Source of the DNA: Actinomycetota bacterium
Lineage (GTDB): Bacteria; Actinomycetota; Actinomycetes; Nanopelagicales; Nanopelagicaceae
Reading direction: 5' to 3'
Length of the DNA stretch: 52,519 nt
Assembly (NCBI GenBank): GCA_026392945.1
Contig: JAPLBB010000051.1
Coordinates: 1-52,519, forward strand
Position numbers and translations under genes: made by a program. Below are positions 16,734 to 19,874 of the stretch, piece by piece (position 1 is the stretch's first letter; the number at the start of each line of letters is the position of its first letter). The notes below the pieces were generated by a model that was not told the origin of the DNA, ran no database searches, and was given only the letters and a program-made list of their open reading frames with translations.

Positions 16734-17405
16734 ATGCCGATTATCTATCTTTTGCGACATGCCCAGTCTGTGGCCAACACCAAAGGCATTTTAGCTGGCC
16801 AGGATGACTCAGTTGAGTTGTCAAAAGCCGGTTTTAAACAAGCTGAATCGCTTATTTCTTATCTTTCAGGAATCAAATTTTCTAAAGTTTATTCCAGTCC
16901 GCTTACTAGGTGTATACAAACAATTGCACCGTTTATGGAGAAAAATTCAAAAATTGATTTTCAGGTAGACAACAGAGTAATCGAAATGAATTATGGAAAA
17001 TGGTCTGGCCGTAAGCTTGCAGTGTTGAGTAAAGATCCCAAATGGAAGAATGTTCAAAATAATCCGGCCGCTTTCACTTTTCCGCAAGGAGAAAGTTTTA
17101 AAAGTATGCGCAAACGGGTAGATCTTGCACTTGCTGATCTGAAGACTAAGAAAGGCCCAATTTTAGTTGTAACCCATGGGGACATCATCAAGATGGCTAT
17201 AACTTCATCTCTTGGATTGCCAATTAATCGTTTTCAAAGCTTTGTAGTTGAGCCTGCGTCGCTTACGATAATCAATCTAGAAAAGTCTGGTACCACTATT
17301 TTGCAGAGTAATTTTAAGGTATCTCAAACAGTAATCTCAAAATTTAATTCAAATTTACTTGGTGGCGGAAACATCCTTACTGGTGGCCGCTGGTGGAGGA
17401 GATAG
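16734..17405 (+). CDS. Histidine phosphatase family protein (MSMEG_4193-type putative phosphomutase)
   Basis: A 223-residue member of the phosphoglycerate mutase-like superfamily. The catalytic LLRHAQSVANTKG motif (RHG variant RHA) lies at the N-terminus, VYSSPLTRCIQT follows, and the second catalytic His is in VVTHGDIIKMA. In many Actinobacteria a protein of this kind forms a conserved trio with a DUF3090 and an SCO1664-type protein, often beside mshC; the same order is seen here. Substrate and role are unknown. The C-terminal end (GGGNILTGGRWWRR) is glycine-rich and basic. Its stop overlaps the next start by one base (TAGTG). Confidence 0.88.
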   Translation: MPIIYLLRHAQSVANTKGILAGQDDSVELSKAGFKQAESLISYLSGIKFSKVYSSPLTRCIQTIAPFMEKNSKIDFQVDNRVIEMNYGKWSGRKLAVLSKDPKWKNVQNNPAAFTFPQGESFKSMRKRVDLALADLKTKKGPILVVTHGDIIKMAITSSLGLPINRFQSFVVEPASLTIINLEKSGTTILQSNFKVSQTVISKFNSNLLGGGNILTGGRWWRR

Positions 17406-17944
17406 TGCCGCGTATTATTTATCGTCACGAACCAGCAACTAGGTTTATTGTCAGTGCAATTGGTGACCCTGGCCAGCGTCAATTTTTCATTCAAGTAAAA
17501 TCTGTCGATGGACTAAACTCTGTAACTTTAGAAAAGAGTCAGGTGATTGCATTAACTGAGAGATTAGAAGAGTTAGTGCGTGAATTGCGTCGAGGTAAGT
17601 TAGCTTCGCCAGAAGTAATCTCTGCCGCACCTGATCTTGATAACCAACCTATGGAGTTGCCAATTGATGAGGATTTTCAAGTAGGAGTAATAAGTATTAC
17701 CTGGGAGAATGAGTTAGTAGTAGTGAATATACAGGCAGCTTCACAAGATGATGATCTTATTTTAGACGACATAGATACGGGCCCAGATCTTTTAATAGCC
17801 ACACTTAATATTGCGCAAGTAAAAGGTTTTTGTGAACGTGCGATGAGCATTGTGAATGCTGGCCGAGCAGCCTGTCCATTTTGTGGACTTCCAATTGATC
17901 CACTCGGTCATTTGTGTCCTCGGGCCAATGGTTATCGCAGATGA
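17405..17944 (+). CDS. DUF3090 family protein with C-terminal zinc-ribbon-like end
   Basis: About 179 residues, with the family pattern ATRFIVSAIGDPGQRQFFIQ at the N-terminus and LEKSQVIALTERLEELV after it. The C-terminus CPFCGLPIDPLGHLCPR has three cysteines and a His, consistent with a metal site, which is my inference. No enzymatic motif is recognised. GGAGG lies 5 nt before the GTG at 17405; GTG 17393 would add four residues. It overlaps the kinase-like gene by ATGA, so the trio is tightly coupled. Its function is unknown; its constant partnership with a phosphatase and a kinase-like protein suggests a shared pathway. Confidence 0.87.
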   Translation: MPRIIYRHEPATRFIVSAIGDPGQRQFFIQVKSVDGLNSVTLEKSQVIALTERLEELVRELRRGKLASPEVISAAPDLDNQPMELPIDEDFQVGVISITWENELVVVNIQAASQDDDLILDDIDTGPDLLIATLNIAQVKGFCERAMSIVNAGRAACPFCGLPIDPLGHLCPRANGYRR

Positions 17945-18636
17945 AAGATGTAACTGACTTAATTTTGAACGGAAACTTAATGGTAGTTGGCCGTTTAGTA
18001 GATGCTTCGAATGCAACCTTATTAGCTAATGTAGAAGGTAGCGATCCATTAATAGAAGTAATCTATAAACCAGTTGCTGGTGAGAGACCATTGTGGGATT
18101 TTCCAGATGGAAACCTTGCTAACCGAGAGTACTCCGCATATTTATTAAGCGATCTTGCAGAATTTAATATCGTTCCATACACAGTATTACGGGAAGGGCC
18201 ATTCGGATTTGGCATGGTTCAAGAGTGGATCAAGGTAGATCAGAACATTGATGTGGTTGAGTTCGGCCAAAGTTCCGATCATCAACTGCGCAAACTTGCT
18301 CTCTTTGATGCAATTATTAATAACACTGACCGTAAATTCGGGCATTTATTGGTTGATGAAAGTGGAGTACTTAAAGGATGTGACCATGGCGTGGCATTTC
18401 ATTCTGAGGACAAACTAAGAACAGTCCTATGGCAGTTTTCCGAACAGCCCTTTTTGCCAGAAGAGTTAAGTCTTTTAAATAATGTTAAATCAATTGACCT
18501 CGATGAAGCTTTTTCAAATTATCTAACTAAAGAAGAAATAGCTGCGATAACAAGTAGGACTGATAATCTAATTAGTAGTGCTAGGTTTCCGGAGCCAAGT
18601 GAGGCTTGGCCAGCAGTCCCATGGCCACCGGTTTAA
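17941..18636 (+). CDS. SCO1664-family protein, distant PI3/PI4-kinase-like fold
   Basis: About 231 residues. Kinase-like marks can be read: VIYKPVAGERPLWDFPDG with a candidate ATP-binding Lys, VPYTVLREGPFGFGMVQEWI, the catalytic-loop-like LFDAIINNTDRKFGHLLV, and CDHGVAFH in the place of a metal-binding DxG. This matches the known distant likeness of the family to phosphatidylinositol kinases and HipA. The substrate is unknown and could be protein, lipid or small molecule. ATG 17941 overlaps the DUF3090 stop (ATGA) and was chosen over an upstream ATG at 17914. mshC follows after 14 nt. Confidence 0.85.
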   Translation: MKDVTDLILNGNLMVVGRLVDASNATLLANVEGSDPLIEVIYKPVAGERPLWDFPDGNLANREYSAYLLSDLAEFNIVPYTVLREGPFGFGMVQEWIKVDQNIDVVEFGQSSDHQLRKLALFDAIINNTDRKFGHLLVDESGVLKGCDHGVAFHSEDKLRTVLWQFSEQPFLPEELSLLNNVKSIDLDEAFSNYLTKEEIAAITSRTDNLISSARFPEPSEAWPAVPWPPV

Positions 18637-18650
18637 GCGAGGTAGATAAC

Positions 18651-19874
18651 ATGAAAACATGGCCAGATCTTTATTTACCAACACTTGATTCTAACGATTT
18701 CCCGACTCTGAAATTGAAGGACTCTAATTCTGGTGATTTAAAAGCAATTATGGGTGATAGTTTTAAAATGTATGTCTGTGGAATTACTCCCTATGATGCT
18801 ACACATCTAGGGCATGCTGCTACTTACCTCAGTTTTGATCTAATAAATCGTTACAAACGTCTTTCTGGCTCAAAGGTAAGTTTTGTTGAGAATATTACCG
18901 ATATTGATGATCCACTTTTTGAACGTGCTAACCGAGATAAAATTGATTGGCAATTTCTTGCTAACGCTCAGATTGATCTTTATAAGTCTGATATGACAGC
19001 TCTTAGAATTTTACCTCCAACTAATTTTGCAAAGGTGACTGACTCAATCGATATCATTGAGAAATTTATTCAAAAGTTATCGCACAATGGACAACTTTAC
19101 GAAATATCTGGCGACCACTACTTCTCTGTTGAACCATTTTTAGAAAAATTGCCATTACAAGTTGATGCAGCAATAAGTATTTTTGCTGAGCGTGGGGGAG
19201 ATCCAACTAGAGCTGGTAAGAAGCACCCATTGGATCCAGTTATTTGGTTAGCCAATCGTAATAATGAACCAGGGTGGCAGAGCAACTTAGGATTTGGTCG
19301 TCCGGGATGGCATGTTGAGTGCACAGCTATCGCTTGTGAGTTCCTAGATGATAAAAATAGTGATCCAATAATTGATCTTCAAGGTGGTGGAAGTGATCTT
19401 ATTTTCCCACACCATTTTATGAGCGCACAAATAGTTAAAGCTGCATATGGTCGGGATTTCGCAAAATACTTTGTGCATGCGGCCATGATCGGTTTAGATG
19501 GTGAGAAAATGAGCAAGTCAAAGGGAAACCTAGTATTTGTATCAAAATTATTAGAAGCAAAAGTTGATCCAATGGCAATTAGGTGGGCGCTCCTAAAAGG
19601 TCATTATCAAGAAGATAGAGCTTGGAGTAATGAATTACTTAAAACAGCAGATTTAGAAATTAATCAGATTCGTCGTTCACTTTCTCAAAGTGAAGTTAGT
19701 GATTCAACGGAGTTAGTTAGTGGTTTGATTTTTGATATTTCAAATAACCTAGATACTCCGTCAGCTTTAAAACGATTATTAGATTGGTCGAGAAAATCTG
19801 ATAATAATGGAGATGTTAATCAAACCGGTTTAGTCTCTAGAGCAATTGATTCACTGCTTGGTTTAGCACTGTAA
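18651..19874 (+). CDS. mshC: Cysteine:GlcN-Ins ligase (mycothiol biosynthesis)
   Basis: Joins L-cysteine to glucosaminyl-inositol using ATP, a late step in making mycothiol, the main low-molecular-weight thiol of Actinobacteria. It is related to cysteinyl-tRNA synthetase. CGITPYDATHLGHAATYL carries the HIGH-like motif and a zinc Cys, HVECTAIACEF holds further zinc ligands, and KMSKSKGN is the KMSKS loop. What separates it from CysS is the GITPYDATHLGHA sequence and the shorter length of 407 residues. ATG 18651 has GAGG upstream and gives MKTWPDLYLP; the open frame upstream overlaps the previous gene. Its presence shows that the organism probably makes mycothiol. Confidence 0.95.
   Translation: MKTWPDLYLPTLDSNDFPTLKLKDSNSGDLKAIMGDSFKMYVCGITPYDATHLGHAATYLSFDLINRYKRLSGSKVSFVENITDIDDPLFERANRDKIDWQFLANAQIDLYKSDMTALRILPPTNFAKVTDSIDIIEKFIQKLSHNGQLYEISGDHYFSVEPFLEKLPLQVDAAISIFAERGGDPTRAGKKHPLDPVIWLANRNNEPGWQSNLGFGRPGWHVECTAIACEFLDDKNSDPIIDLQGGGSDLIFPHHFMSAQIVKAAYGRDFAKYFVHAAMIGLDGEKMSKSKGNLVFVSKLLEAKVDPMAIRWALLKGHYQEDRAWSNELLKTADLEINQIRRSLSQSEVSDSTELVSGLIFDISNNLDTPSALKRLLDWSRKSDNNGDVNQTGLVSRAIDSLLGLAL

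Follow-up and report, generated by a model that had tools for sequence, protein, structure and literature searches.

A co-inherited trio of histidine phosphatase, DUF3090 protein and SCO1664-family kinase in Actinomycetota: predicted type II PI4-kinase-class fold and independence from mycothiol

Three overlapping genes in the window, the whole 52,519-nucleotide stretch of DNA analysed here, encode a histidine phosphatase, a DUF3090 protein and a SCO1664-family kinase, and they belong to a unit that is inherited together across the phylum Actinomycetota. One interpretation, for which we see about as much reason to believe as to doubt, is that the trio works as a single functional unit, namely a kinase/phosphatase phospho-switch with the DUF3090 protein as its adaptor. 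The kinase, as a minimal soluble relative of the type II phosphatidylinositol 4-kinases (PI4-kinases) and FAM20, would use ATP to phosphorylate a hydroxyl of the target, and the phosphatase would take the phosphate off the same target. The DUF3090 protein would hold or sense this target through its zinc ribbon and PUR-like domain, in the role of an adaptor or regulatory subunit. We infer both the action of the two enzymes on the same phosphate and this adaptor role, the latter from the fold resemblance of a model and from gene order.

The three genes and mshC lie on the forward strand. The phosphatase reading frame (16,734–17,405) ends, as read on the sequence, with a TAG at 17,403–17,405, and the DUF3090 gene (17,405–17,944) starts with a GTG at 17,405, overlapping this stop by 1 nt, and ends with a TGA at 17,942–17,944. 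The kinase gene (17,941–18,636) starts at the ATG at 17,941 within an ATGA, giving a 4-nt overlap. The neighbour outside the trio, mshC (18,651–19,874), which encodes the mycothiol cysteine ligase, starts with an ATG at 18,651, 14 nt from the end of the kinase gene. The overlaps and the 14-nt distance given in the sequence-only reading were exact.

All three families are named but uncharacterised. The DUF3090 protein matched TIGR03847 with 160.2 bits, above the cut-off of 117.25, and PF11290 with 144.7 bits. The kinase matched TIGR03843 (“SCO1664 family”) with 262.7 bits, above the cut-off of 172.4, and PF00454 (PI3/PI4-kinase) weakly (E = 2e-5). The phosphatase, a TIGR03848-like protein (Rv2135c-like, “RHA” variant), matched PF00300 with 158 bits (E = 2.9e-46), but despite its position in the trio it scored 172 bits with TIGR03848 (MSMEG_4193 phosphatase), below the curated cut-off of 203.85; about one quarter of the trio genomes also miss this cut-off. 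MshC scored 462 bits with TIGR03447, slightly below the cut-off of 485. The window comes from a 1.03-Mb draft genome that is 85% complete, and “Candidatus Planktophila” is among the nearest named relatives of the kinase.

The sequence-only reading had named the families as a recurring actinobacterial trio, and profiling across the phylum, with 198 genomes, agreed with this. The kinase and DUF3090 were found in the identical 90 of the 198 genomes after two discrepancies were settled, one being a contig end (G172) and the other a weak, below-cut-off kinase match that was set aside (G174). All 42 of the trio genomes that were tested had the phosphatase, and four clade members that lack the kinase and DUF3090 (G039, G045, G057 and G177) had no phosphatase either, so that the three genes strictly co-occur. 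Their order is also kept across the phylum, far beyond chance: in each of the 58 loci of other classes the phosphatase gene is found immediately upstream, with DUF3090 beside the kinase and extra space in one locus, and the trio order was kept in 30 of 30 inspected loci of the window's order. These co-occurrence statistics are naive in that phylogeny is uncorrected. The distribution of the unrelated pafA gene is nearly the same as that of the trio (Jaccard 0.94, above the 0.87 of MshA-like genes), so that within-phylum profiling mostly reports clade history. A functional link to the Pup ligase encoded by pafA was rejected: the window's genome, an 85% complete draft, keeps the trio without a pafA match, and we take the overlap as a clade signal.

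The suggestion that the genes are kept in a reduced genome was also borne out, as streamlined relatives retain the kinase (145 of 151 genomes of the window's order, including complete genomes of 1.2–1.5 Mb). According to database notes, the trio may also be present in Chloroflexota. In Mycobacterium tuberculosis, the Rv2133c, Rv2134c and Rv2135c region (TIGR03843/TIGR03847/TIGR03848) shares with the window its three families, their order and, as in other Actinomycetia, the coupling to mshC; the window differs from this system in its below-cut-off phosphatase and is otherwise an ordinary member.

Corynebacterium glutamicum has the kinase and phosphatase without DUF3090, and the actinomycete genome G008 carries, beside a full trio elsewhere, a second phosphatase-kinase pair without DUF3090 (L158, G008:C17:152948-154262). 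Such pairs survive without DUF3090, which makes the two enzymes the core of the unit. In Pseudonocardiales (L208, L209, L211 and L213) the trio is split, with the phosphatase adjoining the undecaprenyl-diphosphatase gene uppP and the DUF3090-kinase pair elsewhere; the displaced phosphatase was found in every genome tested. UppP was considered as a functional partner and rejected, its adjacency to the phosphatase being a local arrangement in Pseudonocardiales.

Other conserved neighbours, whose names were read from the sequences and not from a library scan, were rejected as partners since they recur only in Actinomycetia (an aldo/keto reductase, a PAC2 protein, CorA, MetH and an F420-type reductase). 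Outside Actinomycetia no gene was fixed near the trio, no neighbour being common to more than 14 of the 58 loci. No relatives of the trio were found in viral contigs. The single match in a phage collection (MT835969.1, “Bacteriophage sp.”, L244) was not accepted as viral: it is a piece of actinobacterial chromosome with 71% GC that carries the trio together with a small fragment of mshC.

A model of the kinase, built from an alignment of 46 relatives, had a pLDDT of 91 and a pTM of 0.89. Its best fold matches in the PDB were type II PI4-kinases (Z 17–18, best 18.3; 215–218 of 231 residues; rmsd 3.2–3.4), and lower matches were FAM20 (Z 14.7), CtkA (13.5), HipA (10.2) and PI3-kinases (8.6). Invariant in the family are K43, E63, D130-R131-K132, H135 and D148 (motifs DRKxxH and DHG). 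By analogy with the superfamily, K43 would be the ATP lysine, E63 the helix-C glutamate, D130-R131-K132-x-x-H135 the catalytic loop and D148 in DHG the metal-binding residue. The sequence-only reading had guessed at a kinase and named structure prediction as a check; with the type II PI4-kinase fold present in the model (Z 18) and the catalytic residues invariant, the guess holds. Neither of the outcomes that this reading had named as refuting it, a predicted structure without a kinase fold and profiles in which the three genes fail to co-occur, was seen. On these predicted features, the SCO1664-family kinase should be active as a kinase.

The whole kinase domain superposes on that of PI4KIIalpha/beta over about 218 residues, and the lysine, DRxxx and D-x-G motifs match. 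The window kinase differs in its length of 231 residues, its identity of about 20%, an invariant LWDFP that follows the ATP lysine in the N lobe and a Lys two residues past the catalytic Asp (D+2). It has a single Cys, in CDHG, and the Cys-rich membrane insert of PI4KII, its site of palmitoylation, is absent. The protein (or sugar) kinases FAM20, CtkA and HipA share the superfamily by fold (Z 10–15), and weak Pfam matches to HipA_2 and Fam20C were seen, but their structural scores against the window kinase are lower than those of PI4KII. A PDB sequence search with the kinase gave only weak FAM20A and PI4K matches. Ser/Thr protein kinases, rather than lipid kinases, characteristically have a Lys at D+2, and for this reason we lean slightly to a protein target. 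A literature search on the locus tags of the kinase and DUF3090 found no functional study of either.

These features bear on the possibility that the trio runs an inositol-lipid cycle, in which the bacterial kinase genuinely phosphorylates phosphoinositides or inositol and the phosphatase removes the phosphate, for example from a phosphatidylinositol phosphate. The closest solved folds of the kinase, type II PI4-kinases, score clearly above FAM20 and HipA, and a PI-phosphate-synthase-like gene was found in 90 of 90 trio genomes and inositol-1-phosphate synthase in 86. In addition, the M. tuberculosis phosphatase Rv2135c was found in membrane fractions (PMC3866925). However, the missing palmitoylation insert and the Lys at D+2 speak against such a cycle, and the PI-phosphate-synthase-like gene also occurs in 53 genomes without the trio, which argues that inositol lipids do not need it. 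Since these inositol genes are present in about half of the non-trio genomes as well, their distribution is compatible with an inositol-lipid substrate but does not prove it, and we regard this cycle as rather doubtful.

The phosphatase was recognised as such from the letters, rightly: it falls in branch 1 of the histidine phosphatase superfamily (PF00300) and keeps all of the catalytic residues (R8, H9, R59, E84 and H148), which are conserved in 99–100% of 130 relatives. It has the RHA motif and the catalytic residues in common with Rv2135c, as well as its place in the operon; Rv2135c was reported as an acid phosphatase without mutase activity (PMC3866925).

Co-inheritance alone does not prove that the kinase and phosphatase oppose each other, as the two might also serve separate steps in the same pathway. 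In a biosynthetic relay, for which CobU and CobC in cobalamin synthesis are the model, the kinase would make a phosphorylated intermediate, another enzyme would use it and the phosphatase would act later on the product. The closest match of the window phosphatase after its own family is indeed CobC (TIGR03162, 123 bits), and with no further gene fixed beside the trio the middle enzyme could lie elsewhere. Against the relay, a third pathway enzyme is not conserved near the trio outside Actinomycetia. Rv2135c moreover acts weakly on common metabolites (Km about 10 mM) and not at all on G6P, ADP or 3PG (PMC3866925), and we consider the relay unlikely. The phospho-switch, in which the two enzymes would act on one phosphate, is the reading we prefer.

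The DUF3090 model (pLDDT 88) shows two beta4-alpha repeats. Its best fold match was PUR-alpha (PURA; Z 9.4, rmsd 3.1, 108 residues), with Whirly proteins below it (Z 5–6). The Cys-rich end that had looked like a metal site corresponds to a C-terminal C-x2-C-x8-H-x-C motif, a predicted Cys2-His-Cys zinc ribbon in which C157, C160, H169 and C171 are invariant; the spacing is kept in 131 of 136 family members, and the exceptions include truncated reading frames. The presence of a Cys/His motif at this C-terminus was noted before (PMC9425974). BCG transposon mutants of the DUF3090 gene (BCG_2151c, Rv2134c) were reported to be viable and mildly sensitised to rifampicin (PMC11329110), which contradicts, for BCG, the earlier supposition that the phospho-cycle is essential.

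With its PUR-alpha and lower Whirly matches followed by a zinc ribbon, DUF3090 might be a PUR-type protein that binds single-stranded nucleic acids, with the kinase and phosphatase as the switch of this binding. However, unlike PUR-alpha and Whirly proteins, the DUF3090 proteins are strongly acidic (129 members, median pI 4.55), which disfavours plain nucleic-acid binding; they also have the added zinc ribbon, and a sequence relationship is not detectable. PurA was absent from the Pfam matches listed for 40 members. Since C. glutamicum also keeps the two enzymes without DUF3090, a switched nucleic-acid binder seems quite improbable. The PUR resemblance, being that of a model, is a lead on fold and not on function; for the phospho-switch it would serve as the adaptor domain.

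The position of mshC had led to the idea that the trio takes part in mycothiol chemistry, and a link from the SCO1664-mshC neighbourhood was also proposed by Chandra and Chater (PMC4255298). In Actinomycetia, mshC comes after the trio in at least 52 of 74 loci, as it does in 29 of 29 loci of the window's order that have room for it. In other classes it follows in 0 of 53 loci, and thus the neighbourhood is class-specific. Among the trio genomes, at least 15 possess just one CysS-family gene, from which we conclude that they lack MshC; 8 of these have no MshD match and 3 no MshA. Therefore, the trio does not need mycothiol and is inherited independently of it, and the proposed link failed.

A more specific form of the idea is that the phosphatase is MshA2, the GlcNAc-Ins-P phosphatase, and that the trio serves mycothiol synthesis. 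MshA2 is named in reviews, and we know of no gene assigned to it. The tight linkage in Actinomycetia, the overlap of MshA-like genes with the trio (Jaccard 0.87) and the presence of mshA, mshC and mshD in the window's own genome would fit such a role. Against it, mycothiol synthesis has no kinase step, G039 has MshA-, MshC- and MshD-like genes without the trio, and the trio genomes without MshC, together with the other-class loci without mshC, rule it out as the general function of the trio. We therefore give this assignment very little weight.

Some observations on mycothiol genes stand apart from the trio. Genomes of other classes (L185-L204) carry divergent MshC-like genes beside a normal CysS, with 369–446 bits and thus under the TIGR03447 cut-off. 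In some of the genomes in which mshC does not follow the trio, such a gene lies elsewhere, recognised as a shorter second CysS-like gene with 382–446 bits, and mshD accompanies it. In 18 trio genomes with such a gene that were checked, MshA-like matches were found alongside, and MshD was above its cut-off in 17; these matches suggest that mycothiol may be made outside Actinomycetia. An MshA-like glycosyltransferase without MshC (one CysS-family gene) was seen in G001, G009, G021, G024, G032, G046, G051, G075, G081, G097, G124 and G167. Two more CysS-like genes are present in the genome of the window (G000:C10:8105-9229 and G000:C53:4510-5712), one with an in-frame TAA; a pseudogene, a sequencing error or contamination are possible explanations.

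As the target of the phospho-switch, a protein is our tentative first choice. An inositol lipid or inositol phosphate is a weaker candidate, and another small molecule is an equally weak one. A target outside all of the named groups seems improbable, and the mycothiol intermediate GlcNAc-Ins-P is the least credible of all.

The families and the linkage of the trio were already on record, which makes the window an ordinary representative of a kind that is known but unsolved. New here are the assignment of the kinase to the PI4KII class from its predicted structure, the predicted PUR-like fold of DUF3090, the finding that the genes are co-inherited exactly, and their uncoupling from mycothiol. 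Inheritance apart from mycothiol steers work away from the mshC neighbour, the basis of the only published suggestion that we found (PMC4255298). With a kinase of predicted PI4KII class, an intact partner phosphatase and a predicted fold for DUF3090, the “unknown trio” becomes testable biochemistry. Across a large part of the phylum the trio is found almost universally, and this part takes in the M. tuberculosis and Streptomyces lineages and the streamlined freshwater lineage that the window resembles. A more far-reaching and speculative possibility, which we hold to be doubtful, is that the trio represents an ancient actinobacterial switch that phosphorylates phosphoinositides or proteins, with a PUR-fold zinc protein through which the PI4KII-class kinase and the histidine phosphatase work. 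If true, this would be a kind of signalling or lipid control not described in bacteria.
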